Shown here one piece after another: positions 24,184 through 62,532 of a stretch of DNA of 64,000 nucleotides. The notes below the pieces were generated by a model that saw only the letters and a list, made by a program, of their open reading frames with translations, was not told where the DNA came from and searched no databases. Numbering within the stretch: the stretch's first letter is position 1; each line of letters opens with the position of its first letter. The DNA is from Lachnospiraceae bacterium (GTDB lineage Bacteria > Bacillota > Clostridia > Lachnospirales > Lachnospiraceae): NCBI GenBank assembly GCA_017434885.1, contig JAFSGE010000005.1:62001-126000 (forward strand), read 5' to 3'. The translations under genes were made by a program, and so were the position numbers.

Positions 24184-24301
24184 AGTCAACTTTCTGTCTG
24201 TTCTCATTATTGGGGCGTAAACTGGGCGTATTGGCGTAAGTCTCACACCTCGCAAACCCAGTATTTAAGCCATTTTATTTATCCAAACTCTTCATCGTCG
24301 G
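24184..24301 (-). other. Diverged second copy of the lysS 3' end and its flank (attachment-site remnant)
   Basis: Read on the minus strand, 24301-24275 encodes PTMKSLDK-stop, the exact C-terminus of the lysS gene at 36925, with three synonymous changes. The 3' flank also corresponds: AGTCAACTTTCT occurs at 24184 and 36833, at 91 and 92 bases from the respective stop. In the same relative place both copies have direct repeats with 11-base period, GGGCGTA here (24213, 24224, with TTGGCGTA at 24231) and TTTGGGTTTA at 36860 and 36871. This is therefore a homologue of the element's right end lying outside its left end. Confidence 0.75.
24273..24301. repeat. Left attachment repeat (attL)
   Basis: 29 bases matching 36923-36951 at 26 positions. 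The longest identical run is TTCATCGTCGG, a candidate crossover core. It marks the left boundary of the integrated element. Confidence 0.8.
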
Positions 24302-24553
24302 AAAACTCGAACTTACGTTCCGTCCTTTGAAGTCCATTGGATTCCTTTCATCATTCTGAAAAATCATAGGCGAATTCTTTTTGAATCCACCGAAATCCAA
24401 TGAAACTGATGAATATGTAGTCATCCATGTGGCTCCATATGGATTTTATAGGTCTCAATATCGTGTTGTCCGTTTTCGTTCATATGCGTCTAATCGAATC
24501 CAATCAACTCATTAGACACATCGTACACTAAAAATACATCTCGATATTCTTAA

Positions 24554-25786
24554 CTATTTAATTATAATACATCCTTCAATATTTGTCATCACTTCTTTTT
24601 TCTTCTCCTTGGTACATTCGGCGTAGATATCCATTGTAGTAGAAATATCCGCATGTCCCATAATATCCATGATGACCTTCAAGTTTGTTTCGTTCTCACA
24701 AAGTCTGGTACAAAAGGTGTGACGCAGATGATGGGCCGAGAAATCCGGGAGAAGCAATGGTTCCCTGCCGTCCTTCTTTGCTTCCTTTTCTTCCTTGTCA
24801 TTATACGCCTTTGTTGCTCTGTGAATTGCATTGTTTACAGCAGCTGCGCTATAAACAGTGTGATAAGCTGTAGTAAAGACAAAACCGGAATATCCGTCAA
24901 TTTCTTCTTCACAAAATCCAAGACACTTCTGAATCTCATACTCTGTCAGGAATGCTTCAAACACTTCCTGAATCATTGGAATTGTTCTTGTGCCTGCTTC
25001 CGTCTTGGGAGTCTGAATATGCTTCGCACATACTCCTTTTGAATCCGGGCGGTCTGACAGATTGTGATTTACACTAATCATACGATTTTCAAAATCTAAA
25101 TCCTCCCACCGAATAGCGATACACTCTCCGATTCTCATACCGGTTCCAAGTAGCACTGTAATGATAGGTAACCATCCCTCATATTCCCTGTCCGATTCCA
25201 GATAATTCATAAAAGCTTTCTGCTGCGGAATCGTCAGAGCTCTTCTCTTCGGTGCATCCCAAAGCTTGCTTCTCTTGATCTCTGTCATTGCAGAATCTGA
25301 TGGATTGTTTACAATTAGCCCATCTCTAACAGCCAACTGCAATGCCGGATGAACTACGGTATGGATATTCTCCAATGTATTTGCTTTTATCCCTTCCTTT
25401 AGAACAGAAAAATAGAATTCTTTCACATCGGAATAACGAATCTCCGCAATCTTTCTTTTTCCAAAAGTAGGTCTTACAAAACGATTATACATATAGATGT
25501 AATTAGCCTTAGTAGTTTCTTTCAGATTGTACTTCTGACTAATGTATCTGTCGAAGCAATCATTTAGTGTAAGCTTCTTGGCAGCATACGCATCCAATCC
25601 CTGGTCATATTTAATTTGAAGTTCCTTTTCCCTTGCTCGAAGCTCCGGAAGAGTCTTGGCATAGATATAATGACGCACTCTGTTTCTGTCAGAATATGCG
25701 TAACAATATCTGCCATCGTTTCTCTGTGACTCACCGGTTCTTAGAACATATCCCTTGCTGTCTTTTCTTCCTTTAATAGCAGCCAT
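24554..25786 (-). CDS. int: Tyrosine integrase of the Tn916/phage type
   Basis: The 410-residue recombinase has an N-terminal arm-binding domain (about 1-60), a core-binding SAM-like domain (70-170) and the catalytic domain. The Arg is in GTGMRIGECIAIRW, the HxxR pair in HHLRHTFC, and the region before the active Tyr in MGHADISTTMDIYAE, so all catalytic groups appear present. It should insert and excise the element at lysS. GGAGG lies 8 bases before ATG, partly within a hairpin at 25792-25816. Confidence 0.95.
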   Translation of the reverse strand: MAAIKGRKDSKGYVLRTGESQRNDGRYCYAYSDRNRVRHYIYAKTLPELRAREKELQIKYDQGLDAYAAKKLTLNDCFDRYISQKYNLKETTKANYIYMYNRFVRPTFGKRKIAEIRYSDVKEFYFSVLKEGIKANTLENIHTVVHPALQLAVRDGLIVNNPSDSAMTEIKRSKLWDAPKRRALTIPQQKAFMNYLESDREYEGWLPIITVLLGTGMRIGECIAIRWEDLDFENRMISVNHNLSDRPDSKGVCAKHIQTPKTEAGTRTIPMIQEVFEAFLTEYEIQKCLGFCEEEIDGYSGFVFTTAYHTVYSAAAVNNAIHRATKAYNDKEEKEAKKDGREPLLLPDFSAHHLRHTFCTRLCENETNLKVIMDIMGHADISTTMDIYAECTKEKKKEVMTNIEGCIIIK

Positions 25787-25965: not shown

Positions 25966-26187
25966 CTACATTTCGCAGAAGTTCTCCAAATACTCATCCA
26001 CCTTCTCTGTATTGACTAAAACACATCTCTTAACCTTGTAAACCGCATTGGCTTCCTTGGCTATTTCCTGAAAAGTATGAAGCCCTAACGAGTAAAGGGC
26101 TGCTCCTTCCGCATATCTAACAAATTTCTTCTTTCCGGTCTGAACCATGTTCTCTAACTGTGGTACTTCTACTCTTGCTCTTGGCAT
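25966..26187 (-). CDS. xis: Excisionase-like small HTH protein (DUF6462 type)
   Basis: The 73-residue basic protein resembles the excisionases encoded beside Tn916-type integrases: KKKFVRYAEGAALYSLGL forms a winged-helix start and VLVNTEKVDEYLENF its C-terminal part. Such proteins bend the att DNA and favour excision. TATAGGAGGAATGTAAA precedes the ATG. The integrase gene starts about 180 bases downstream with no gene between, and a regulator gene ends 1 base upstream. Confidence 0.8.
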   Translation of the reverse strand: MPRARVEVPQLENMVQTGKKKFVRYAEGAALYSLGLHTFQEIAKEANAVYKVKRCVLVNTEKVDEYLENFCEM

Positions 26188-27063: not shown

Positions 27064-28854
27064 TTAATCATAAATACCTTTTCCGATACAACACTTTTTA
27101 AATTTTTTCCCACTACCGCACGGACATTGCTCATTTCTTCCTACTTTTTTCTTTTTACGAACATTTGTTGTCGCCACTGGATACTCATACGGTATACCAT
27201 GTTTTTCAAAATAAATCTTATCAATCAAACTTGGTCCATTGGCAGGAAAATATATTGCACCATTTTGTTCTCTCGTATGAGAGTCCATAAAATATCCTTC
27301 CACCACATCCAATTCATCTGAAGCTAATATATTCTGATGATTCTCACTTCTCCAAATAACATAATCCATAAAATCATCAGGCTCCTTATTTAAATATCTT
27401 AATATTTCTATAATATTTTCAAAATCGTGCCAATTACAAACCCATGGATATGGCTGACTATCCTCTTTTTCCAATATTAAGCTGGTATTCACGGCTAAAC
27501 CACCAAATTGATTTAACGTCAATACAATTGGTATTATTCTTTTTGCTGCCACATTTTGTATCATGAATTTTTTGTTTTTATTTTCATATAATACAGCATC
27601 ATCTTTAGCTTCAATAAATCTTTTTAGAATAATTGCTTGTTCATAAGCTCCACCAATTCCACTATCCGAATTAAAATGATCTCGGATACGTTTATATCCT
27701 TTTTCCGGATTAAAAAATGGCTCTCTAACCTTAGAGGCTTTTACCTCTACGATTAAAATATAATCCTTATATTCTATCAAAATATCATGTTCTTTGGTTC
27801 CACGTTCTTCGCATACACTTGTATAATATTTCGCTTGTTCTCCAAATATATCTTTCAATAAATTAAGGAATAATTTTTCAACTATTTCTGCCTTTACTTT
27901 CTTATATCTATCTGCAAACTTATTTTTAGGATTTTCTAATATCTCAGTAATATAATTGTACGCTGCATTTAATACAAACTGTGGATGAACAATAAACAAC
28001 GACTTCTCGTCCTCAAGCCAACAAAGCGGATGGTCTGCAAACGGATTTTTCCCATTATAATACAAAAAATCTGTCTCTTTTCTGTACAAACCCAAAATAT
28101 TTAATAATATTTCTCCTTTCTCTTTTCCAAACATTTCTTTTATTTTTGAGGACTTAATAACATTTAGATTATCCATTGCATCTTGAAGATTTGCCCCTGC
28201 CATACCTTGTGCAAATGTCATCATACGCTCAAATTCTCGTTCTACGTCAACAGCATAGGGATTAAGAGAATTTAAAAAGTTCTTTATATTATTCACAGCA
28301 TATGTCGATGCACTCATATTTTCTTCAAATATGTCGCAAACCAATTGATAGAATGCTATATAATCTTCTATTATCAAGCCTGTCAAGCTTTCTAATTCAG
28401 AATCAAAATCACTATACAATTCTCGAATTAATGTTATTGTTTGTTCTGGATACCTCAATATCCCCGTATCAAAATAAGATGTAAAGGCTTCCATTGAAAT
28501 CAAATTTCTTTTTACAACATTCTTCTCGGAATTATGATCTATATCGAGAAAATTTTTTAAATATTCATTAGTAATTTCCTGAACATCACTTTCTAATTGT
28601 TCAAATATTCCTCCATCTTCATCTCGAATAATCTGACCATTGCTTTCGTCATTTGTACTCATAAGCAATCCGGCAAGATATGCATATTGCTTTTGTGGTG
28701 ACATAAGATTTGTTTTGTTGAAAATATCAGATTGTTCAGCAACTTCTTTGGCATTATTGGCAAATGTAATAAAATGGATTCCTATCATTCCTAATAAGTC
28801 ACGAGTTCCAATCTTTTGTAGCTTTGCTTTTAATTTATTTATCTTTGTTTCCAT
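27064..28854 (-). CDS. Large SEC-C protein with a PD-(D/E)XK nuclease-like core
   Basis: This 596-residue protein ends in a SEC-C zinc motif, [18 protein letters not shown] (about 573-590), a short metal-binding tail shared by SecA and many unrelated proteins. Near residues 355-385, [21 protein letters not shown] has the D...ExK order of restriction-type nucleases. The first 330 residues are helical and unlike anything I know. AGGAG lies 10 bases before ATG. It is placed in a defence-rich element between excision genes and an AbiE pair, so a phage-defence nuclease is a reasonable but unproven reading. Composition is AT-rich like the rest of the cargo. Confidence 0.7.
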
Positions 28855-28915: not shown

Positions 28916-29758
28916 TCATAGCAAATACCTATTCATCATATTCTCTACATAATCAATCACACTTTTCCACTCTAGGTCCCCTACATAAAAATTGCTTTTC
29001 TGAAATTGCCCCCAAAGCTCTGCCATGTGCAAATCATCAGATATCAAATGCAATGTAGCTTCAATATCATCCTTGCTAAAAATAGTTTTCCGCTTTTCAC
29101 AAGTAGCAGAAAATGCATCGCATAAAACCTGTTTTTCTATCTGCTCCCCATAGAAGTTCATGATACTATAGACATCATAAAAATCTCTCAATCTGGTATT
29201 AGCAATACCTCTATTTATGATTGTCTGCATCTTCTCTGCCAGCAGCGTTTCCTTGTTATATGTAAGAACAGAAATTGTTCTATCCTCAAACATTAATTTA
29301 TAGTCGTACTCTACAGCCTTCGGTGTGATCACATCATCTGTAGAAATGTCGATTTTAATTGGTTGACGCATCCTGTCCAGCGTAGCTTCCAGCATTACAC
29401 GAATACCCGGATAATCAAATTCTTCCATAATAGTTCTTGTACTTTTAATTTGAAAGCTAACATTATCTTCCAACGGGATGTTACAAATTTCTTCAATTAT
29501 CCTCTGTACGTCAGCCTCATTTAATGGTAATGCTTTTACTGTTGTATCAATATCCATCGTAGCTCGCATATCTACACCAACAATTGACGCTACCAACATT
29601 CCACCCTTAAGAATAAAATTATCTCGATATGAAGATATAGATACTCTTTCCAGAAATCTTTCCATCATAAAATTTCGAATTAGCGTAGTCGCTTTATTAC
29701 TATTCCCATTCGAAATATTTCTCACCTTATCTTTTAATTGTCTTGATGAACAAATCAC
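28916..29758 (-). CDS. abiEii: AbiEii-type toxin (type IV toxin-antitoxin nucleotidyltransferase)
   Basis: The 280-residue protein has the AbiEii/MenT-like nucleotidyltransferase layout: FILKGGMLVASI followed by RATMDIDTTVKA, giving the G-x-D-x-D-like site, and the downstream KETLLAEKMQTIINRGI and RLRDFYDVYSIM motifs. Such toxins modify nucleic acid or tRNA ends and stop growth in infected cells. The start is GTG 29758, with GGAGG 5 bases upstream, and overlaps the antitoxin stop in GTGA, so translation is coupled. Confidence 0.9.
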   Translation of the reverse strand: MICSSRQLKDKVRNISNGNSNKATTLIRNFMMERFLERVSISSYRDNFILKGGMLVASIVGVDMRATMDIDTTVKALPLNEADVQRIIEEICNIPLEDNVSFQIKSTRTIMEEFDYPGIRVMLEATLDRMRQPIKIDISTDDVITPKAVEYDYKLMFEDRTISVLTYNKETLLAEKMQTIINRGIANTRLRDFYDVYSIMNFYGEQIEKQVLCDAFSATCEKRKTIFSKDDIEATLHLISDDLHMAELWGQFQKSNFYVGDLEWKSVIDYVENMMNRYLL

Positions 29759-30354
29759 ACTAACACCTCCACGTACTTCATCACTTCATCTCGAATTCCC
29801 ATCATATCTGCATATACGATCAGCTGGGATAGCTTTTTGTCCTTCGATGACATATATTCCTTGATAGCCGTTTGAAATACTTGTACTTCATACTTATTAC
29901 GATTCATTATCAAATCGCAAATACAACGCTCCTTATCGTAAACCTTAACTAAGTTTCCGCTGCTGGATGCAATCTCGCAAATTCCTATTTTATATAAATC
30001 CGGTGCAGCGTATTTCACCAAAACATCAAAATCATTATCCTTTAGATGGCTCGCATTATATCCTTGCGGCACAGTAACACACACAGATGAATACTCCCTA
30101 TCTGTCAAACCGTGCAAATATAGTGCTGTTTCTCCGGAATAAATAATCGCACCATTTCTTTGTTGCAAAATGAACAACTCATCCGGCCACACATCATCCG
30201 CTATATATACACCTCTTGAGACCTTCTCCATACCGTGTTCCTTAATATATTTTGCAACATAGGTCTTAGAAATATCTTCACTACACACCAAAGAGGTAAT
30301 AAGATAACCATTATATTTTTCAATAAAATTTTCAATTTTTTCCTTTTTTGTCAT
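29755..30354 (-). CDS. abiEi: AbiEi-type antitoxin and autorepressor
   Basis: About 199 residues from ATG 30354 (GAGG 8-9 bases upstream; an earlier GTG overlaps that site). The N-terminal winged helix (FIEKYNGYLITSLVCSEDIS, YVAKYIKEHGMEKVSRGVYI) is followed by the AbiEi C-terminal domain (IYSGETALYLHGLTDR, TVPQGYN). AbiEi proteins both neutralise the toxin and bind inverted repeats at their own promoter; such repeats are present at 30372-30417. The operon is this gene plus abiEii. Confidence 0.9.
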   Translation of the reverse strand: MTKKEKIENFIEKYNGYLITSLVCSEDISKTYVAKYIKEHGMEKVSRGVYIADDVWPDELFILQQRNGAIIYSGETALYLHGLTDREYSSVCVTVPQGYNASHLKDNDFDVLVKYAAPDLYKIGICEIASSSGNLVKVYDKERCICDLIMNRNKYEVQVFQTAIKEYMSSKDKKLSQLIVYADMMGIRDEVMKYVEVLV

Positions 30355-30371
30355 TCTTTTCACCTCTACAC

Positions 30372-30417: not shown

Positions 30418-30438
30418 CTCTTTTTTAATTTTTTTGAC

Positions 30439-30513
30439 CTATGCATCTTTATTTAACTTCGCCAACACCTTCACCTGCTCAATCGCCACTTTTCTAACAT
30501 TCTCATTCTTCAT
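30439..30513 (-). pseudogene. Possible 24-codon gene remnant beside the IS66 fragment
   Basis: Minus strand ATG at 30513 with AGGAG a few bases upstream opens a 24-residue frame (MKNENVRKVAIEQVKVLAKL, then NKDA) ending at TAG 30439. It lies a few bases from the left break of the IS66 fragment. It could be a small gene or the cut start of a larger one. I do not recognise it. Confidence 0.35.
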
Positions 30514-30520
30514 CTCCTGC

Positions 30521-31821
30521 TATGGTAAAGGTAACTGGCGTCGTATGCCGGATGAAACCTATAAGAGACTTCGTCATGAACCGGAGTCATGGACGGTGGA
30601 AGTTCATACCGTTGAGGTTTATGTCGGAACAGATGGTGACCACCAGGATGAGTTTATGCGTGGAGACAGACCAAAGGATCTGCTGCGAAACAGCATAGTT
30701 ACTGCATCGCTTCTTTCATCCATCCTGAATGTAAAATACGTAAATTCCTCTGCTCTCAACCGGATTGAGCAGGAGTTCGAACGCAATGGTGTAAATATAT
30801 CCAAACAGACAATGTCAAACTGGATTATCCGCTGTTCGCAAAAATATTTTGCTCCGTTTGTTGAGAGAATGAAACAGGAACTTCTTTCCCTTCCCGTAAC
30901 CCAGGCGGATGAAACACCGACACAGGTAATCGGGGACAGTGACCACAAAAACAGTAAGTGTTACATGTGGGTGCACCGCTCAGGGGAACTGTACAGGAAC
31001 CGGCAGATTGTAATCTACGAATACCAGAAAGGTCGTAATCACCAGATACCTTTGGCATTCTACAAAGATTACAAAGGCATTCTTGTAACGGACAGCCTTG
31101 AACAGTACCATCTGGTCGACAAGAAGCTGACCGATGTAACAAATGCAAACTGTTGGGCACATGCAAGGCGTGACTTTGCAGATGCGATAAAGGCTGCGGA
31201 TAAGAGTAATCCAAATGCAGTCAAACAGTCTGTTGCATATCAGGCACTGCAGAAGATTGCCGAATTCTATACTATTGATACGGAACTTAAAGAGCTAACA
31301 CCGGAAAAACGACTTCAAAAACGGCAGGAAGTAATCAGGCCGCTTGTTGAGGAGTATTTTGCGTGGGTAAAAGAACAGCTTGCAAATACATCCGTTCCAC
31401 CGAAGGGAAAAACAGCAAAAGGTCTGAACTTCTGTGTTAATCAGGAAAAGTACTTAAAAGTATTTCTGGAAGACGGTGATGTCCCTATTGATAACTCGGC
31501 TTCAGAGCGTGCAATTCGTACTTTTTGTCTGGGCAAGAAGAACTGGATGTTCCATAACACAGCCAATGGCGCGAATGCGAGTGCTTTGGTTTATAGCATC
31601 TCTGAAACTGCGAAACTAAACAATCTGCGACCATACAATTACTTTAAATATATTCTCACAGAGCTGCCAAAGCTCTGTGACAACCAAGGAAATATATATC
31701 CTGCGAAGCTGGATTATCTGATGCCATGGTCAGAAACTCTTCCGGATGATTGCAGGAAACCACGCCGCTCATAAAACCAGCGGCGTTTATTTTAGCGTCA
31801 GGCGTATGGTTTGACGTTTAC
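30521..31821 (+). mobile_element. IS66-family element, 3' remnant
   Basis: Only the right part of an IS66-type element remains: most of the transposase, a hairpin terminator (31762-31769 with 31779-31786, then TTATTTT) and a right tip. Read inward, the tip is GTAAACGTCAAACCATACGC, fitting the GTAA start usual in IS66. The accessory genes tnpA and tnpB, the transposase N-terminus and the left inverted repeat are missing, so no target duplication can be checked. Confidence 0.8.
30524..31774 (+). pseudogene. IS66-type transposase (TnpC), N-terminally truncated
   Basis: Homology to IS66 transposases starts about 30528 (NWRRMPDETYKRLRHEPESW) and continues to the stop, giving about 415 of the usual 520 or so residues. 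The catalytic DDE core is there (TQADETPTQVIGD for the first Asp, TDSLEQYHLV for the second, DNSASERAIRTFCLGKKNW for the Glu), as are the mid and C-terminal helices. The N-terminal zinc-finger and DNA-binding part is lost. The open frame extends upstream to 30434, but that portion is unrelated flanking DNA. It cannot be active as it stands. Confidence 0.85.
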
Positions 31822-32639
31822 TTGGAATTTGATCCAACAACAGTATTGGCAAAGCTCAATTACAAAAACGAACCTGCCAATATCAACGATATTGATTTTG
31901 ACGACTGGGATTATGAATACGAGTATGGATTTGGGAAGAAGCTAAAAATATCAAATAGAGAGCAGTATTATAAGCTAATAATTGCTATAAGGAAACTCAT
32001 TAAGGTTAGCCTAGAAAATCATAAGGCTCCTGACTTAACAACGATTGAAATTTTAAGAATGTATTTTGATATTACAAATACTTTTATAGCATCCAAAACA
32101 AAACCTTTAGAAGTAAAGATACCTATTAACAACTCAGAAACGCTCTCATTACCTTTAATTAATCCGCCGGACGTTCATATAAACTTTCACTATTCTAATT
32201 ATTCTCTTGATTCTGCACTAAAGGAAGATTTAGCTAGTTTTCAAGTATATATATATATGAATGTACCTCTATTGCTGATATAGTATATTCTATTTTGCAT
32301 TTTCAAACTATTTGCGGATTAAAATACCGCAGGTGTATGCACTGCAATACATTATTTGCTACCATTTCCGAGAAAACGAAATATTGCAAGCAAAAATCAC
32401 CATATCCAAATTATACTCACTTGAATTGCGAACAAGCAGTAAGGAATATTTCGCAACAAATAAAGAGAAAATATAAGAGAATCTATAACAATCTATCTCA
32501 GAATCATTCCGAGGATAATATGCGACTTATTAGATTCACTGATCAATTTAATAAGTTTTCAAAAGAAATGCGAAAAAATCCTACTCCAGAAAACATAGTT
32601 CTGCTCTTTGATGTATTAGATAGCAAGCTATGGTATTAA
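31822..32639 (+). pseudogene. Broken gene with C-terminal zinc-finger (DUF6076-like)
   Basis: Two frames together make one protein. The first (31822-32283) begins directly at the IS66 tip (LEFDPTTVLAKLNYK) with no start of its own. The second (to 32639) continues in another frame: reading through the junction in that frame gives YECTSIADIVYSILHFQTIC, then a finger with RCMHCNTLF and YCKQKSPYP. The shift falls in a TATATATATATAT run at 32246-32258; removing one TA unit would rejoin the frames. Both the lost 5' end and the shift mark it as decayed. Family placement is tentative. Confidence 0.6.
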
Positions 32640-32645
32640 ACAAAA

Positions 32646-32680
32646 ATGGAAGATAGTTTTTCACTATCTTCCATTATATT
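32646..32680. terminator. Bidirectional terminator between the broken gene and AIPR gene
   Basis: Perfect 12-bp stem ATGGAAGATAGT (32646-32657) with ACTATCTTCCAT (32663-32674), 5-base centre, T-rich on the plus side and A-run (T-run on minus) before it. Confidence 0.88.
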
Positions 32681-34546
32681 TTATTCTTCCATAATATCTT
32701 CCTTCTCTTCTGAGACAGACTCAATTACAATCTCATTTTCTTTTTTATTGTAAATTGCAAGAATGTTATTATATGCATTTTTTGATCCATATAGATTTGT
32801 AATTTTGCTAATCTCCGAATATTTTCTTAGCATCTCACAAGCCACCTCAAATGCTTCATCTAATGCATTTTCTGTATGATCCTTTAATTTATTAAATAGA
32901 AAAAATCTTGCCATTACTGATTTCTCAACAGTTTCTTCATTTTTATTAATATGCTTTTTATTCGTCTTTTCATACGCCTCTAAAAATATCGAATCATAAT
33001 CCTGGTATGTATATTTAATTAGCGCGGTTAAATAATACCTTGCATCTTTTAAATATTTATACTTTTTCTCAATTTCCGGATTATCTTTTCTGTTTGCTTT
33101 CATTTCAGAAACTCTTTTATCAACAAAGGAATATACCTCATATGCATTATATAAATCTCTATAATCCATTTGTTCGTTAAAAATTGTTTCATATATATCA
33201 GCATCTGAAGAAAAAATAGTCCCTGGAGCAGTTCTTGCCAAATGTGGATTCTGAAGCTGAAACGCTACGTAGGCTTGAGCCATATCTTCGTTAGATACTA
33301 TTCTATTTTTTTCGTGATCAACTTTTTCAAATTCACCCCTTTTACGTTCATATATTATATCCGTATTTCTTAATAAATCATAATAAATTTTACTTTGTAT
33401 TATATCATTACTATGATAATCTCTCGGCTCTATAGGTGTTTGAGTATTTGTAAACTGGATAATATTTTGTTCTAATTTAGGATCATCAACCACGATCATT
33501 TTCATTGAAATTATTAATTTCTCAGACATCTCTTTACGTTTGGATTTATTTGCTCTTTCATATGCCTCAAAAATCGATTTGACAGTCTGTGCACCATTAA
33601 TGATCTGCATTCCTGCTATTGAGATTTTCTTCGTTGTTTTTTCATAATATGGGTATACTTTTTTTGTTATCGCAGTTATTCCATTATTAAATCCAAAAAA
33701 ATTATCTGGTTCATATAAAGCACTTTCTTGCATTCTTTGATTTACCGAAACCGTAAGCGGATTTCTAACATTTTTCAAAAACAAACATGTTCCATATTTT
33801 TTATATAATTCATAAATATGATCTGCACCTAAAAGGAAAATAAAAGTATTATCTGGTTTAACTATCAAACTTCCATTTTGTCTAATTGAAATTGTAATTT
33901 TTCCATTAATAGGATCTATATTTTCTAATGGATTATCCGTTACATACCCTCGCATATTATAATCAATATATGTATTTTTCATTGATATTAGATCAAAAAT
34001 TTGTGTATCAACAAGAGGACTGTGACTATATTCATTTAATTCTTGTATTCTAAAATCCTTATCAGTTACACACAATGTTACAAGTAAAAATCTTACTCTT
34101 CCATTATTATCAACATGCTTCTGAAGTTTTTTATACATTGCATTAAACTTCTTATTATTTGGCGATTCCGCTTTTTGATGTTGAATCATCATATTAAAAT
34201 CTGTCAAACATGATTTATAAATGTTAGTAATCCCATTACTCTCAATACAATTACTCTTTGCAAACCATTTTGCTTGGACAATATAAAATACTTCCTCATC
34301 CTTTTCTTTATTTGAAAAAATCAGATCACATGAATTATCGTCGTCTCCATCAACTATATATGTTTTCCATTTTTCGATTTGTGCAATCTCATTTTTTAAA
34401 TTATTCTCTAGGAACCAAAGCAAAAAACCATAAGACTTCTTACTATTAGTCTCTTTTATATTTTTAAGAACTTCTTCGTCAGAATATTTATCAATAATTG
34501 CATCTATCTCAGAATCTACGATATCGTAAAAATCTAAGTTGTTCAT
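32681..34546 (-). CDS. AIPR family (abortive infection phage resistance) protein
   Basis: About 621 residues from ATG 34546; GGAGGAGG lies 11 bases upstream, and the TTG-started frame a few codons earlier overlaps that site. The AIPR core is clear: FFGFNNGITAI, then GMQIINGAQTVKSIFEAY and FTNTQTPIEPRDYHSN. The N-terminal 150 residues have CDLIF...VFYIVQAKWF, a D...QxK arrangement that may be a restriction-like nuclease fold. AIPR proteins are linked to phage exclusion but their mechanism is unsettled. It is the last gene of the RHH-R-M operon, 24 bases after the methyltransferase stop. Confidence 0.88.
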   Translation of the reverse strand: MNNLDFYDIVDSEIDAIIDKYSDEEVLKNIKETNSKKSYGFLLWFLENNLKNEIAQIEKWKTYIVDGDDDNSCDLIFSNKEKDEEVFYIVQAKWFAKSNCIESNGITNIYKSCLTDFNMMIQHQKAESPNNKKFNAMYKKLQKHVDNNGRVRFLLVTLCVTDKDFRIQELNEYSHSPLVDTQIFDLISMKNTYIDYNMRGYVTDNPLENIDPINGKITISIRQNGSLIVKPDNTFIFLLGADHIYELYKKYGTCLFLKNVRNPLTVSVNQRMQESALYEPDNFFGFNNGITAITKKVYPYYEKTTKKISIAGMQIINGAQTVKSIFEAYERANKSKRKEMSEKLIISMKMIVVDDPKLEQNIIQFTNTQTPIEPRDYHSNDIIQSKIYYDLLRNTDIIYERKRGEFEKVDHEKNRIVSNEDMAQAYVAFQLQNPHLARTAPGTIFSSDADIYETIFNEQMDYRDLYNAYEVYSFVDKRVSEMKANRKDNPEIEKKYKYLKDARYYLTALIKYTYQDYDSIFLEAYEKTNKKHINKNEETVEKSVMARFFLFNKLKDHTENALDEAFEVACEMLRKYSEISKITNLYGSKNAYNNILAIYNKKENEIVIESVSEEKEDIMEE

Positions 34547-34570
34547 TTGTAAATGTTCCTCCTCCAACTA

Positions 34571-35566
34571 CTACTTCTCAGAAATATATTTTTTTATTTT
34601 TCTTTTTTCCTGCTTTATCTGTTTTTCAATATTTTCTAACTCTTCTAAACGCATTTGCATCCATTCAACCGGGTATTTTGAAACGGAATCTTTACCTGAT
34701 GGTTCATATATTTTTTGATATATTGGTCTAGTTTTTAATGCATCTTGAGCTAATTTGTTAATTCTTTCTAATCCAATATCAATATACTCCTTCATTAGCT
34801 CTGTCCCATATGCTTGTCTGCCATTTTTCAATGCAGCTATTAATGAACTACCTACTCCAGCAAATGGATCATATACTATATCATTTTCATTTGTAAGAGC
34901 AAGAACACATCTTTCAACTAGCTCAACAGGAAATTGACATGGATGAATTGTCTTTTCAGGATGTTGTGATTTAACATTTGGGATATCCCATACTTTACAA
35001 TCCCAATCATCATAAAGTCTTTCTATTGTTGCTTTCCAGACATCCTCTGGATTCTTTCCCTTTGGATTTCCAGACAATTTCCCTTTTTTATCACCTTTAT
35101 AAGATCGCTTACCAGGATATTTTGAAGGAATCCTTACGTCATCTAAATTAAATGTGTAATTTTCCGTCTTTGAAAACCAAAGAATTGTTTCATATCTTCC
35201 CGAAAATCTCTTTTCGCATTGTAATCCATGCCCAAAATGCCAAATTATTCTGTTACGTAACAGAAGCCCCATATCCTTAAATATTTTGTAAAAATAAATA
35301 TCTAACGGATATACTTCACTTGTAGATGGATCAATATAATTGCCAACTTCCCAACATATACTACCATCATCCGATAAAACTCTAACTATTTCTTTTATTA
35401 TTGGCTTTAAGTTTTCCAGATATTCGTTTAATGATGTTACAGTCTCGTATTCTTTTCCGATATTATATGGCGGTGATGTAATGACAAGTTTGATACTTTT
35501 GTCTTTTTGTTTTTGTAAAAACTTAAGAGCATCTTTCTTTTCATATTTGAAATTTTTAAGTTCCAT
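34571..35566 (-). CDS. DNA methyltransferase of the BglII-like modification system
   Basis: The 331-residue enzyme has motif IV as TSPPYN (30-35) before motif I DPFAGVGSSLIAALKNGRQA, i.e. the beta-class order; SPPY is usual for N4-cytosine enzymes. HPEKTIHPCQFPVELVERCV is the conserved region before motif I. It should protect the host site cut by the nuclease encoded 3 bases upstream, likely a GATC-centred sequence such as RGATCY or AGATCT. The ribosome binding site is only GGGA, so translation may depend on the upstream gene. Confidence 0.9.
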   Translation of the reverse strand: MELKNFKYEKKDALKFLQKQKDKSIKLVITSPPYNIGKEYETVTSLNEYLENLKPIIKEIVRVLSDDGSICWEVGNYIDPSTSEVYPLDIYFYKIFKDMGLLLRNRIIWHFGHGLQCEKRFSGRYETILWFSKTENYTFNLDDVRIPSKYPGKRSYKGDKKGKLSGNPKGKNPEDVWKATIERLYDDWDCKVWDIPNVKSQHPEKTIHPCQFPVELVERCVLALTNENDIVYDPFAGVGSSLIAALKNGRQAYGTELMKEYIDIGLERINKLAQDALKTRPIYQKIYEPSGKDSVSKYPVEWMQMRLEELENIEKQIKQEKRKIKKYISEK

Positions 35567-35569
35567 TCC

Positions 35570-36556
35570 CTATATCACACTTTCTATTTTTTGAATCCTT
35601 AGTAATCTAGCAGGTGGATTATCTTTTTCCTCATAATACTTATCCATGGCTTGTTCTTTTTTTGCCATTATTTTGTCATTCTGAGAAATTAATTTCTTTA
35701 ATTCCTTGCTATCTTCATCCAGACCTTTATTTTTTAATTCTATATATTCTTGATTCAATTTTTCCATCTGAGATTCAAGATCATCAACCTTGTCTTTGAT
35801 CTTCTTAATTCGTTCATCCCATTTTCTCTGATCTTCTACCTTATATTTTCTCATCTGAGCTTTCAGTTTTTCTTTATCAGAATGTCTCAAAATATCAATC
35901 AATTCATTATTTGTATATGTACAAGGGTCTGTATCAATATGATCATCTGATTCAATTCCCAAAATATACACCGGTACAGACGGATTGTTTCGCCCTTCTC
36001 TAATTACATTTGTTACTTCGTTTTCAAACCAAGCAACTCCTGTATCCATACATAGCATCATCTTATGAGTTGGTATTATTTCTATTCCAACCTCAATATC
36101 GTCTCTTAAGTAGAAAAAAGTATGTTTAACATGCAAGTCATATGCGACACTAAAATATTTACCAAATTGAACTTCGACTGCAATTCTATCTTTTACAAAA
36201 TCAACCTGATTATGAGAAGACAATGCTTCAAATCCATTTTCTTCTATAATCCTTTTTTGAGTTTCTTTATCCGATATCTTTACTATTTGTTTAGAAATAT
36301 CTTCATCTTCTGTAACATAATATGATATCTTCAACTCATTCCAGCCTTTTGAATTTAGTCCTTTTTCGATTTCATCATTCAAGGCCTTCTGATCGTAATA
36401 AATTTCTCCTAAATGAGTTTTATCACAGCTAAACTTCAAATATTTATTAGCATCAATATTTGCCAAACATTTTTCTAGTTCTTCAATCAGTTCCTTTTTC
36501 CTATAATACAAATATTCTTCAGCGTGAAGATGATTATATCTAAATGCTATTCTCAT
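35570..36556 (-). CDS. BglII/BstYI-family restriction endonuclease with coiled-coil tail
   Basis: Residues 1-205 align by eye with BstYI: MRIAFRYNHLHAEEYL at the start, NQVDFVKDRIAVEVQFGKYF with the D119...E128-x-Q130 active site (the BglII/BstYI variant of PD-(D/E)XK), and GVAWFENEVTNVIREGR. BglII cuts AGATCT and BstYI RGATCY, so the target is probably one of these. BglII and BstYI have about 200-225 residues; this protein has 328, and the extra about 110 residues (225-320) are highly charged heptad-like helix. It overlaps the RHH gene start-to-stop by 17 bases and precedes the methyltransferase by 3. Confidence 0.88.
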   Translation of the reverse strand: MRIAFRYNHLHAEEYLYYRKKELIEELEKCLANIDANKYLKFSCDKTHLGEIYYDQKALNDEIEKGLNSKGWNELKISYYVTEDEDISKQIVKISDKETQKRIIEENGFEALSSHNQVDFVKDRIAVEVQFGKYFSVAYDLHVKHTFFYLRDDIEVGIEIIPTHKMMLCMDTGVAWFENEVTNVIREGRNNPSVPVYILGIESDDHIDTDPCTYTNNELIDILRHSDKEKLKAQMRKYKVEDQRKWDERIKKIKDKVDDLESQMEKLNQEYIELKNKGLDEDSKELKKLISQNDKIMAKKEQAMDKYYEEKDNPPARLLRIQKIESVI

Positions 36557-36719
36557 TATCTTTTCCTCTGTAATCTTCTATATTTATATTGTTTTCTTTT
36601 GAATATTCCCAAACCGAATCCGAAATCCATTGAGATACGCTTTTATGAGATATATCAGCTATAATTTTTATCATCTCAGCGGTCTCTTCATCTAATGAAA
36701 TGTTGATTCTCTTTTTCAT
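36540..36719 (-). CDS. Ribbon-helix-helix protein, putative controller of the restriction operon
   Basis: The 59-residue protein has RHH form: an N-terminal strand KKRINISLDEETAEMIKI, then helix SHKSVSQWISDSVWEY. GAGG lies 6-7 bases before ATG. Its last codons overlap the start of the restriction gene by 17 bases, so the two are coupled. Palindromes typical of RHH sites cover the promoter just upstream. It probably plays the part of a C protein, holding down nuclease expression, although the nuclease and methyltransferase seem to share one message. Function is inferred from position and fold. Confidence 0.78.
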   Translation of the reverse strand: MKKRINISLDEETAEMIKIIADISHKSVSQWISDSVWEYSKENNINIEDYRGKDNENSI

Positions 36720-36747
36720 TTAGTCCTCACTTTCTACAAAGCACCTA

Positions 36748-36786
36748 TACACACATTATACGCAAATATGTGTATTTTGAAAATAC
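36748..36786 (-). promoter_or_regulatory. Promoter and palindromic operators of the RHH-R-M-AIPR operon
   Basis: Minus-strand TATAAT (36755-36760), with only a weak -35 (TTTTCA). TACACACAT (36748-36756) and ATATGTGTA (36766-36774) form an inverted repeat over the -10, and GTATTTTGAAAATAC (36772-36786) is a perfect palindrome (single-base centre) over the -35. Both are placed to block the promoter. Confidence 0.7.
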
Positions 36787-36797
36787 ATATAAACAAA

Positions 36798-36832
36798 AAA
36801 GACCAGTAGATTAATCTATCTACTGATCTTTA
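36798..36832 (-). terminator. Terminator after lysS (carried on the element)
   Basis: Stem AAAGACCAGTAGA (36798-36810) with TCTACTGATCTTT (36820-36832), one mismatch, then T-run on the minus strand. It ends the lysS transcript and insulates the element's operon from it. Confidence 0.88.
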
Positions 36833-36922
36833 AGTCAACTTTCTATCACTTTTCAATAATTTGGGTTTAATTTGGGTTTATAATCCTTGTTTGAATCGCT
36901 TGAAACCCTAGTAAAATCAACG

Positions 36923-36951
36923 TTTTACTTATCCAAGCTTTTCATCGTCGG
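36923..36951. repeat. Right attachment repeat (attR) inside lysS
   Basis: Matches 24273-24301 at 26 of 29 positions; encodes the last eight residues and stop of lysS on the minus strand. Confidence 0.8.
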
Positions 36952-38532
36952 GAACAACAGCACATCCCTAATCGCAGGTGAATTGGTCAGCAACATAGAT
37001 AATCTGTCAATTCCGTATCCGATACCGCCTGTAGGAGGCATACCGATTTCCAGTGCGTTCATGAAGTCTTCGTCTGTGGTGTTTGCTTCATCATCGCCTG
37101 CTGCCAAAGCTGCTTCCTGAGCCTTGAAACGTTCTCTCTGGTCGATAGGGTCGTTTAACTCTGAATATGCGTTACACATTTCCCAACCGTTGATGAACAG
37201 TTCGAAACGTTCTACATAATCCGGCTTGTCCGGTTTACGCTTGGTAAGCGGAGAAATCTCCACGGGATGATCCATCACAAAGGTAGGCTGAATCAAATGA
37301 TCCTCTACAAACTCTTCAAAGAAGAGATTGAGGATATCTCCCTTGGTATGTCTTGCTTCGTAGTGAACTTCCTTTTCATCGGCAAGCTTCTTAGCTGCCT
37401 CTGTATCCGGCACTTCATCAAAATCAATGCCTGTATATTTCTTAACCGCTTCAATCATGGTAAGTCTTTCAAAAGGCTTGCCAAGGTCAATCATATGCTC
37501 TCCGTAAGGGACCAAAGTTGTACCGCATACTTCCTGTGCCACATGACGGAACATATTCTCGGTAAGGTCCATCATTCCGTAATAGTCTGTATATGCCTGA
37601 TAAAGCTCCATCAATGTAAATTCAGGGTTATGTCTGGTATCAAGACCTTCGTTACGGAATACACGTCCAATTTCATAAACTCTCTCAAGACCGCCTACAA
37701 TCAGTCTCTTTAAGTACAATTCCAAAGAAATACGAAGCTTGAAATCTTCATCAAGTGCATTAAAATGGGTTTCAAAAGGTCTTGCTGCCGCGCCGCCCGC
37801 ATTGGCAACCAGCATGGGAGTTTCCACTTCGATAAAGCCCTGTCCGTCTAAATATTTTCTGATAGTAGAGATAATTTTGGATCTCTTGATAAAGGTATCC
37901 TTTACTTCTTCATTCATGATAAGGTCAGTATATCTCTGACGATAACGGGTATCCGTATCAGTAAGTCCATGGAACTTTTCAGGAAGAATCTGCAAGCTCT
38001 TGCTCAGCAGAGTCATTTCTACTGCATGAATAGAAATTTCACCTGTCTTGGTTCTGAATACATAACCTTTAATACCGTAAATATCACCGATATCAGACTT
38101 TTTAAAGTCCGCATAAGCATCTTCTCCGATAGCATCCTTGGCAACATAAACCTGGATTCTGCCCTGCAAATCCTGAATATTGCAGAAAGAAGCCTTTCCC
38201 ATGACACGCTTAAACATCATACGGCCTGCAATAGTCACATTAATGGGACTCGCATCCATAATGGCTCTTCTTTCATTGTAATCTGTATTCAGTACTTCTC
38301 TCGCTGCTGCCTCATCCAGACCTTCCACATCAGGTGCAACTCTTCCTGCCAACAGTTTTTCCTCATGAGCATCATACTGCTCTTTTGCCTGTGCGGTGTG
38401 ATGAGTCACGTCATATTTGGTAATCTGAAAAGGATCCTTGCCTGCCTCCTGAAGTGCTGCAAGCTTTTCTCTTCTTACTTTTAATAACTGATTAATGTCC
38501 TGCTGAGGTTGGTTGTTCTGCTGATTACCCAC
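36925..38532 (-). CDS. lysS: Lysyl-tRNA synthetase, class II
   Basis: The 535-residue enzyme has an N-terminal OB anticodon-binding domain (about 70-175) and the class II catalytic core with motif 2 FRNEGLDTRHNPEFTLME and motif 3 GIGYGIDRLSMLLTN. It charges tRNA-Lys. A Gln/Asn-rich start (GNQQNNQPQQDINQ) precedes the usual N-terminal helix. Its last eight codons come from the integrated element, which restores the same peptide end. It follows greA by 29 bases at the end of a long gene block, and its terminator is also element DNA. Confidence 0.97.
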   Translation of the reverse strand: MGNQQNNQPQQDINQLLKVRREKLAALQEAGKDPFQITKYDVTHHTAQAKEQYDAHEEKLLAGRVAPDVEGLDEAAAREVLNTDYNERRAIMDASPINVTIAGRMMFKRVMGKASFCNIQDLQGRIQVYVAKDAIGEDAYADFKKSDIGDIYGIKGYVFRTKTGEISIHAVEMTLLSKSLQILPEKFHGLTDTDTRYRQRYTDLIMNEEVKDTFIKRSKIISTIRKYLDGQGFIEVETPMLVANAGGAAARPFETHFNALDEDFKLRISLELYLKRLIVGGLERVYEIGRVFRNEGLDTRHNPEFTLMELYQAYTDYYGMMDLTENMFRHVAQEVCGTTLVPYGEHMIDLGKPFERLTMIEAVKKYTGIDFDEVPDTEAAKKLADEKEVHYEARHTKGDILNLFFEEFVEDHLIQPTFVMDHPVEISPLTKRKPDKPDYVERFELFINGWEMCNAYSELNDPIDQRERFKAQEAALAAGDDEANTTDEDFMNALEIGMPPTGGIGYGIDRLSMLLTNSPAIRDVLLFPTMKSLDK

Positions 38533-60954: not shown

Positions 60955-62532
60955 TCAGTTCATATACTGATACGGGTCTACCTGCTTGCCGTTAATCAGA
61001 ATTTCAAAGTGCAAATGTGGTCCTGTACTGACACCGGTATTTCCGCTCAGTGCTATCTTCTGTCCCTGAGATACCGTCTGTCCTGCGGAAACCAAAACCT
61101 TACTGAGATGTCCGTATCTGGTCTGTCTTCCGTCCGGATGATTAATATAAACAACGTATCCATAGCCACTACCCCAACCGGCTCTTGCAACAGTACCACC
61201 GGAGGATGCCACAACAGCTGTTCCCGTGGGTGTTGCCCAGTCAACACCTTTATGATAGGTACTTGCCCCCTTCTTAGGTGCACTCCTTCGTCCAAAGGAA
61301 GAACTCAACCGTCCGCCGGAAATCGGTTTAATATAGGTAGGCGGAATCTTGGTTCCTTTCTCCACAATTTTGGGTACCGCTTCATAAGTAACTTCTTCTT
61401 TTATAATTTCTCTGCCGACTTCCTTATCATTTTCAAAGGAAACCACTGCCACTACTTTTCTGTGTCCTGCGGAAGGCTCCTGCAACGTCTTGGTCTGTGT
61501 GGTGTACCATTCATCATTATCAATGTAGATAACGTCAGCCTCGTAGTCCTCTTCGTAGTAAAGTTCTTCCTGACGAACCACCGTAAGCTCCGGTTCCGGC
61601 ACGGTAATAATCAGTTCATCTCCTACATGAATCATGGAACGCTCATCTTCCAACGTTTCGTTCATATCAATCAACTTGTCCAAAGGAATGTTGGTAATAA
61701 TGGAAATCTCCGAAAGCGTATCACCCGGCTGGACTTCATACACTTCGTTCTTTTCCTGTTCCTTAGTTACCTGTTCAATGGCATCATCAAGGTCCGACAA
61801 CTCCTCTGCTCCCAGATACGCCTCAACAACCTCGATAGTATCCCCAAAATCCATAGAGATTAATCCAAGATCATAATCCTCAAATCCCGGTTCCCCGGCA
61901 GGCTGTATTTCTTCAAAAAGTAAATCAATTTCCGCATCCAGTCCCGCGCTTGTCATGACAACCTCTTCTGTTGCCTCTTCCACTTCCTCTTCCGTAATTA
62001 CTTTTGTGGTCAGAACGGACAATTCTCTTGTAGGATCCAGATTCAATTCCACGGTATATTTGCCCTCGGAATCATATTTGTCAATGGCGGCCTGCAAAAG
62101 CTGCTGTACTTCCCCTTTATTGGCAAGATTTACCATAAAATCATTGATTTTCACAACATAAGAGCGGTTCATGGTTTCTCTTACATTATCCGCCATTACC
62201 ATAGCCATATTGGAAATCACCACTTCAGGCTTGTCCACTTCTCCCCAAAGCACTTCGCTTCCCTGCACCTCAAGTTCAGTCTCCACAAGTACCAGCTCTG
62301 TGGTGTCAAGGGCCAGCTGCTTTCTGGCAGCTTTTACATAGTCTTCCGCCTCTTTCTCGCTTTCCACCGTACCTACCTTGACGCCATTTAAAAATACCGT
62401 AAACATATTATCTCCGGTATTTTCAAAAGCTACGTACGAAGGCAGAAAAAAGATACTGACAATTACTGCCAGTACTGCTATTTTAATTTTTCTTATTCTT
62501 AGTCTTTTATAGTAACAGGTAATAAACTTCAT
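60955..62532 (-). CDS. Membrane-anchored LysM-G5-M23 peptidoglycan endopeptidase
   Basis: About 525 residues from ATG 62532 (an upstream TTG-started frame is also open). One membrane segment near 15-35 anchors it. A long N-terminal region with repeated small domains precedes a LysM (YEVQPGDTLSEISIITNIPL, about 275-325), a G5-type domain (TKTLQEPSAGHRKVVAVVSF) and an M23 endopeptidase with all ligands, HKGVDWATPTGTAV and TGPHLHFEI. This contrasts with the degenerate M23 domain of the M56 protein. It likely trims peptide cross-links at the cell surface. Confidence 0.92.
   Translation of the reverse strand: MKFITCYYKRLRIRKIKIAVLAVIVSIFFLPSYVAFENTGDNMFTVFLNGVKVGTVESEKEAEDYVKAARKQLALDTTELVLVETELEVQGSEVLWGEVDKPEVVISNMAMVMADNVRETMNRSYVVKINDFMVNLANKGEVQQLLQAAIDKYDSEGKYTVELNLDPTRELSVLTTKVITEEEVEEATEEVVMTSAGLDAEIDLLFEEIQPAGEPGFEDYDLGLISMDFGDTIEVVEAYLGAEELSDLDDAIEQVTKEQEKNEVYEVQPGDTLSEISIITNIPLDKLIDMNETLEDERSMIHVGDELIITVPEPELTVVRQEELYYEEDYEADVIYIDNDEWYTTQTKTLQEPSAGHRKVVAVVSFENDKEVGREIIKEEVTYEAVPKIVEKGTKIPPTYIKPISGGRLSSSFGRRSAPKKGASTYHKGVDWATPTGTAVVASSGGTVARAGWGSGYGYVVYINHPDGRQTRYGHLSKVLVSAGQTVSQGQKIALSGNTGVSTGPHLHFEILINGKQVDPYQYMN

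Follow-up and report, generated by a model that had tools for sequence, protein, structure and literature searches.

The contig JAFSGE010000005.1 of a Lachnospiraceae bacterium (GenBank assembly GCA_017434885.1) carries, within the 64,000-nucleotide stretch that was analyzed (positions 62,001 to 126,000 of the contig, hereafter the window, to which all coordinates below refer), a minus-strand operon of four genes that lies next to lysS and encodes a ribbon-helix-helix (RHH)-like protein, a BstYI/BglII-type restriction endonuclease (R), an N6_N4-type DNA methyltransferase (M), and an AIPR/AbiU1-like protein (AIPR). We consider it fairly probable that this operon joins an ordinary type II restriction-modification (R-M) pair to an AIPR gene that is separable from it and provides a second layer of defense, with a repressor acting on the operon's own promoter, all in one transcription unit on an island at the lysS site. 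In this scheme, R would cut unmodified RGATCY sites, which M would protect, probably through N4-cytosine methylation; the RHH-like protein would bind palindromes at the promoter and repress its own operon, keeping the level of the R-first message low; and AIPR, probably a nuclease, would be made from the same message and probably attack those phages that survive restriction, with the R-M pair working independently of it.

Counted outward from lysS, the minus-strand genes are those for the RHH-like protein (36540-36719, a 59-residue open reading frame [ORF] whose Pfam matches are below the cut-offs), R (35570-36556, 328 residues that comprise a core, residues 1-203, and a charged 125-residue C-terminal tail), M (34571-35566, with a TSPPY motif and a charged 31-residue end), and AIPR (32681-34546 with an ATG start, or extending to 34567 with a TTG start; 621 residues from the ATG). 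The ORFs and the family matches agree with the identities and order of the four genes given in a first-pass annotation of this DNA, the identity of the RHH-like gene being the weaker one, and its spacings hold as well: the RHH-like and R ORFs share 17 bases, a gap of 3 bases separates R from M, and the distance between M and AIPR is 24 bases with the ATG start at 34546, a value that is upheld because the ribosome-site-like sequence GGAGGAGGAA precedes this ATG and not the upstream TTG at 34567. The single message proposed there also holds by prediction, since terminator-like sites flank the operon, one in the interval between lysS and the operon (36798-36831, minus strand, a 14-pair stem with a T run) and the other 3' of AIPR (32645-32675, minus strand, readable on both strands), and the terminator scan found none on the minus strand between these two; the stretch has 4 such sites on both strands versus 0.9 in shuffles. 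The four genes are thus predicted to share one transcript. Its putative sigma-70 promoter, TTTTCA-17-TATAAT (36755-36783, minus strand), is the best minus-strand match in 32400-37000 and the sole one there with 10 of 12 positions matched (one further such match is on the plus strand). Palindromes do cover this promoter, as had been claimed: the 17-base TGTATTTTCAAAATACA (36771-36787, minus strand), a candidate operator, overlaps the -35 box, and a second, imperfect one (36747-36775, minus strand) spans the -10 box. The weight of that claim is modest, because arms of 8 bases are also reached when the 78 bases concerned are shuffled by dinucleotides (57 of 2000 shuffles). Promoter matches as such are no more frequent in 32400-37000 than in shuffles (21 versus 27.5).

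R and M form a type II pair of the BstYI family. R matches the Endonuc-BglII family (PF09195; 79.4 bits, cut-off 26), and its residues 1-201 match the structure of BstYI (1sdo; E value, 1.5e-52). Residues D119, E128, and Q130 are kept in all 23 aligned rows, including that of the window, and have the same letters in the alignment with BstYI, whose D, E, and Q we take to be the catalytic residues; by homology, R would cut RGATCY sites and spare modified ones. M matches N6_N4_Mtase (PF01555; 182.7 bits, cut-off 26.7) and shares 51-70% identity with the methyltransferases that belong to five BstYI-like pairs, with residues S31, P32, P33, and Y34 of the TSPPY motif invariant in 6 of 6 sequences. 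This motif points to N4-cytosine methylation, the probable means by which M would protect the site predicted to be cut by R.

The combination of the R-first gene order with a long charged tail on R is unusual and represents the most interesting part of the operon. A scan of genome contigs for BstYI-like loci gave 546 confirmed relatives, of which the best 80 were compared (74 of these have at least 2 kb of sequence downstream of R); all counts of BstYI-like loci given below refer to these 80. M precedes R in 75 of the 77 loci that were scored for both genes, and R precedes M in two, referred to as L011 and L013; one of the 3 loci not so scored, L033, shows M before R with overlapping ORFs. The tail that follows the R core has 125 residues in the window, 127 in L011, and 64 in L013, while none of the remaining 78 loci has more than 16 residues there; R of the window, at 328 residues, thus exceeds the usual length of its relatives (∼203 residues) and also departs from their usual gene order. 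A special tail on M as well was considered and rejected: the part of M past the core comprises 34 residues in L011 and 37 in L013 (the median over 78 loci is 15), but also 25 to 45 residues in several M-before-R loci, a range that includes the charged 31-residue end seen in the window, and therefore only the R tail is unusual. Conceivably, this charged tail holds R and M together as a complex and thereby keeps a newly made R-first system safe, with AIPR and its nuclease-like motif (see below) as a third member of the complex, or one released upon an imbalance of R and M, which would make the operon a physically coupled restriction and abortive infection machine; we regard this idea as a long shot. 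In the genus, only 1 of the 36 other genomes searched has a BstYI-like R (54% identical over residues 1-203). A BstYI-like M-R pair adjoins ligase and terminase genes in Burkholderia phage BcepIL02 (L009, 2060-3612).

L011, the nearest relative among the matches listed, occupies the same lysS site, with the gene order greA-lysS-R-M, and its R and M are 70% and 88% identical, respectively, to those of the window. The lysS-side sequence from 36829 is common to both loci, but the distance from the shared terminator region to R is 94 bases in L011 versus 272 in the window, and no RHH gene is present in L011 between the terminator region and R. Downstream of M, L011 contains an AIPR scrap of 35 residues, 27 of which are identical to AIPR of the window; a scrap of the integrase C terminus (47% over 47 residues) directly follows it. 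This AIPR scrap was the sole match in the genome of L011 in a single-protein search, which could miss a distant AIPR, and no second copy of the lysS end was found in L011. Between the window and L011, the proportion of nonsynonymous differences (pN) is 0.127 in the R core, 0.291 in the R tail, 0.066 in the M core, and 0.164 in the M end, while that of silent differences (pS) is 0.71-0.82 over all parts (0.71-0.79 in the cores), at or close to saturation. These values point to strong purifying selection on R and M despite the state of AIPR and the lack of RHH in L011. Because L011 has intact R and M, neither AIPR nor RHH is needed to keep the pair; at the same time, the presence of the scrap means that AIPR has been associated with this R-M pair beyond the window as well. 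The pattern is consistent with a role of AIPR as a separable second layer.

This bears on a different reading, in which the operon is a single two-layer machine whose AIPR stays inactive while R and M work and is triggered when the R-M pair fails or when DNA ends or unmethylated sites appear, leading to abortive infection or postsegregational killing. The 24-base distance and the missing terminator between M and AIPR speak for such a machine, as do the L011 scrap, which extends the link past the window, and independent systems of HaeIII-, AlwI-, and type III-like kinds in which AIPR follows the genes for M and R (described below); the retention of R and M without AIPR in L011 speaks against it. 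No AIPR was detected in the ORFs of any of the 80 BstYI-like loci with a profile derived from 30 AIPR sequences, which disagrees with such a machine and led us to reject a fixed R-M-AIPR unit as a general feature of the BstYI family. The first-pass annotation had named the near-absence of AIPR genes beside related R-M pairs as a result that would speak against a joint system, and for the BstYI-like relatives, though not for R-M systems of other kinds, this is what was found. Taking also into account that AIPR is often found without a methyltransferase nearby and that it precedes, rather than follows, the AlwI-type genes on a Priestia plasmid, we consider the two-layer machine unlikely.

PF10592 scored over its cut-off in 18 of 291 genomes of the class, and the AIPR protein search gave matches in 15 of 250 genomes of the family, the genome of the window being included in both counts. 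Their surroundings were evaluated in a set of 33 loci, which does not count the locus of the window itself or the seven matches below the cut-off in one genome (G221). A methyltransferase neighbor, defined as an over-cut-off match to PF01555, PF00145, or PF02384 within 7 kb (other methyltransferase families were not searched), was found in 13 of these 33 loci (8 of 18 and 5 of 15), with a weak case (G538) scored as a miss and several loci located near contig ends. Random placement would give ∼1.1, a rough figure for which totals were counted by eye and the clustering of defense genes was ignored. The systems involved are unrelated: a C5 methyltransferase and a HaeIII nuclease precede AIPR in G077, a D12-class methyltransferase and an AlwI nuclease in G463 (where the N6_N4 match is in the next gene upstream), and type III-like mod and res genes in G076. 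The latter genome encodes two AIPR proteins that are 95% identical, one (L196) beside these type III-like genes and the other (L194) beside a gene for an Mrr-type nuclease. In G242, an AIPR gene is adjoined, on the opposite strand, by a gene with a GmrSD_N domain (L191, 8445-9542; PF03235, 82.7 bits). Among 10 annotated plasmid contexts, picked for variety from 132 records with incomplete gene tables, an annotated methyltransferase was located within 5 kb of AIPR in 3 of 10 (Priestia, with the AlwI system in which AIPR comes first, Rhodococcus, and Deinococcus), not in 7 of 10. AIPR thus recurs beside R-M systems of unrelated kinds and also occurs without a methyltransferase.

Such recurrence could also result from hitch-hiking within defense islands, whereby AIPR and the R-M pair were joined by chance transfer and read-through and have no joint role. 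On the quick 42-row AIPR tree, where the AIPR of the window sits on a long branch with unsure placement, the methyltransferase-neighbor label is scattered in a way that agrees with hitch-hiking: it requires 11 changes, at least 7 of them forced by supported branches, and is not clustered, as 94 of 500 shuffles gave values as low (90 and 94 for the two labels). The same applies to the AbiE-like genes on the same island, to the L194 AIPR, which has no methyltransferase match and lies beside the Mrr-type nuclease gene, and to the general clustering of defense genes described in PMC3506569. The 13 of 33 loci with a methyltransferase match compared with the ∼1.1 expected argue against pure hitch-hiking, although defense clustering alone could explain much of this difference; overall, we judge it quite unlikely. 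The joint R-M-AIPR arrangement envisaged in the first-pass annotation is partly supported: methyltransferase matches recur near AIPR beyond this locus, including the HaeIII- and AlwI-type lines, but the association is not fixed, as L011 keeps its pair without AIPR. Nor is the combination as new as had been suggested: PMC2292703 and PMC3506569 report a general association of AIPR with R-M genes, so the link as such is not unknown, and PMC5608340 describes Pin25611FIII, an R-M operon with an AIPR/AbiU1 gene. What is unusual here is the gene order and the R tail.

AIPR of the window matches PF10592 (134.4 bits, cut-off 25), and the AbiU model of PADLOC covers its residues 17-559 (E value, 2.1e-39). 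In an alignment of 30 proteins (that of the window and 29 from related genomes, not selected for any motif), N259, R261, F283, N288, G289, N317, G318, Q320, N367, and Q369 are identical in all rows. The N-terminal region of the window protein carries a PD-(D/E)XK-like motif, D70/D74...Q91-A-K93, of which D74 is found in 27, Q91 in 22, and K93 in 20 of the 30 rows; D70, D74, and Q91 are invariant in another set of 16 rows that were chosen partly for that motif. The D...QxK motif is absent or broken in AIPR proteins of the MZA-like kind and in the one linked to AlwI in G463. It would fit a PD-(D/E)XK-like nuclease, an assignment that cannot apply to all AIPR proteins, and the AIPR of the window is probably a nuclease. 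The N-terminal HEPN domain assigned to AIPR proteins in PMC3506569 was unsupported here, the D...QxK motif being better suited to a PD-(D/E)XK-like nuclease. Scans of viral contigs with the AIPR and R proteins of the window gave no relatives; the queries A4 and A5 yielded four AIPR loci, and the query A6 yielded none.

The RHH-like protein may bind the palindromes at the promoter and repress its own operon. A literature search on RHH proteins that control R-M systems found nothing relevant. The nuclease-first order under a small RHH gene, which according to the first-pass annotation needs a special way to avoid self-cutting, does hold, but RHH cannot be a requirement for it: L011 is R-first without an RHH gene, so that the R-before-M arrangement is independent of this protein. 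Alternatively, the RHH-like protein could act on R itself, as a partner resembling an antitoxin or by inhibiting it directly, instead of repressing the promoter. Gene overlaps such as the 17 bases shared by the RHH-like gene and R are seen in toxin-antitoxin pairs, and the protein weakly matches RelB antitoxins (16.2 bits, cut-off 50); nevertheless, with the same R encoded in L011 without RHH and with the palindromes located on the promoter, we find this alternative highly improbable.

Several results weigh against the reading of an ordinary R-M pair with its own repressor and a separable AIPR gene. While the layout of the operon is well supported, the predicted promoter and operator are supported modestly, and the best Pfam match of the RHH-like protein, DUF6364 (21.9 bits), is below the cut-off of 27.3. 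RGATCY sites number 7 in the window versus 10.8 expected, counts too small to show avoidance of the site. Not all AIPR proteins have the putative nuclease motif, as D74, Q91, and K93 are jointly present in 19 of the 30 rows, and a profile search of PDB gave chance-level matches only, with no solved structure related to AIPR. Finally, the order of gains and losses relative to L011 is not readable because the silent sites are saturated, and the loss of AIPR in L011 could also reflect the disappearance of a joint function from that locus.

Among the described systems, the window resembles the BstYI/BglII type II R-M systems in the nuclease core (D119, E128, and Q130) and in having a methyltransferase of the same subfamily, and differs from them in the R-before-M order, the 125-residue R tail, and the presence of an RHH-like gene ahead of the pair and of AIPR after it. 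It shares the linkage of AIPR with R and M with the R-M operons that contain AIPR/AbiU1 genes (Pin25611FIII in PMC5608340 and those mentioned in PMC2292703 and PMC3506569). In the MZA system, the AIPR-like MzaE adjoins methyltransferase genes, as does AIPR of the window; this assignment was rejected, with 47.8 bits for the MzaE equivalog against a cut-off of 1050. The AbiU1 protein of lactococcal AbiU is likewise AIPR-like, in line with the PADLOC match, but AIPR of the window is embedded in an R-M operon, and no AbiU2 gene turned up in general scans of the window, which did not include a search with AbiU2's own model.

The operon is carried by an island of 12.7 kb that encodes a tyrosine integrase and sits in the 3' end of lysS. 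The lysS 3' end that adjoins the operon (36923-36954, minus strand) is repeated at the far side (24273-24304, minus strand, 28 of 32 positions identical), which provides the attachment-site repeat. Just inside the far copy are the genes for a tyrosine integrase whose DNA-binding domain is of the Tn916 type (24554-25786, minus strand; PF00589, 95.3 bits, and PF02920, 57.3 bits) and for a DUF6462 protein, a probable excisionase by inferred role (25966-26187, minus strand; 92.3 bits). The GC content of the operon is 0.28-0.31 versus 0.40 and 0.43 on the two flanks of the island. It is this repeat, the two genes inside it, and the low GC content that identify the operon as island cargo, and an integrase together with a duplicated target end is what is expected of an integrative element. 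Three close members of the genus (G643, G644, and G647) have different DNA 3' of lysS, none of them showing a clean empty site; in G643, two DUF6462-like stretches follow lysS (L137, 4146-4592) and point to another element at the same end. The lysS end therefore looks like a hotspot.

The island carries several other genes. An AbiEii-like nucleotidyltransferase (PF08843, 141.7 bits) and an AbiEi-like partner below the cut-off are encoded at 28916-30363 on the minus strand and likely constitute a type IV toxin-antitoxin pair. The adjacent minus-strand gene (27064-28854) codes for a 596-residue protein with a C-terminal SEC-C motif and no further Pfam family, in which a D...EVK stretch resembles, by eye, PD-(D/E)XK nucleases. 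An IS66 transposase gene (30434-31774, plus strand) has a GC content of 0.44 versus 0.34 for the whole island. Two adjacent plus-strand ORFs (31750-32639), convergent with AIPR, are possibly fragments of one decayed gene; the second weakly resembles DUF6076, below the cut-off.

The window and L011 offer a naturally occurring comparison at a single chromosomal site, where the same R-M pair is present with and without AIPR and RHH. This makes it directly testable whether AIPR cooperates with the R-M pair or merely travels with it. In addition, the long R tail seen in the few R-first loci suggests a way for a restriction system to tolerate a nuclease gene that precedes the methyltransferase gene.

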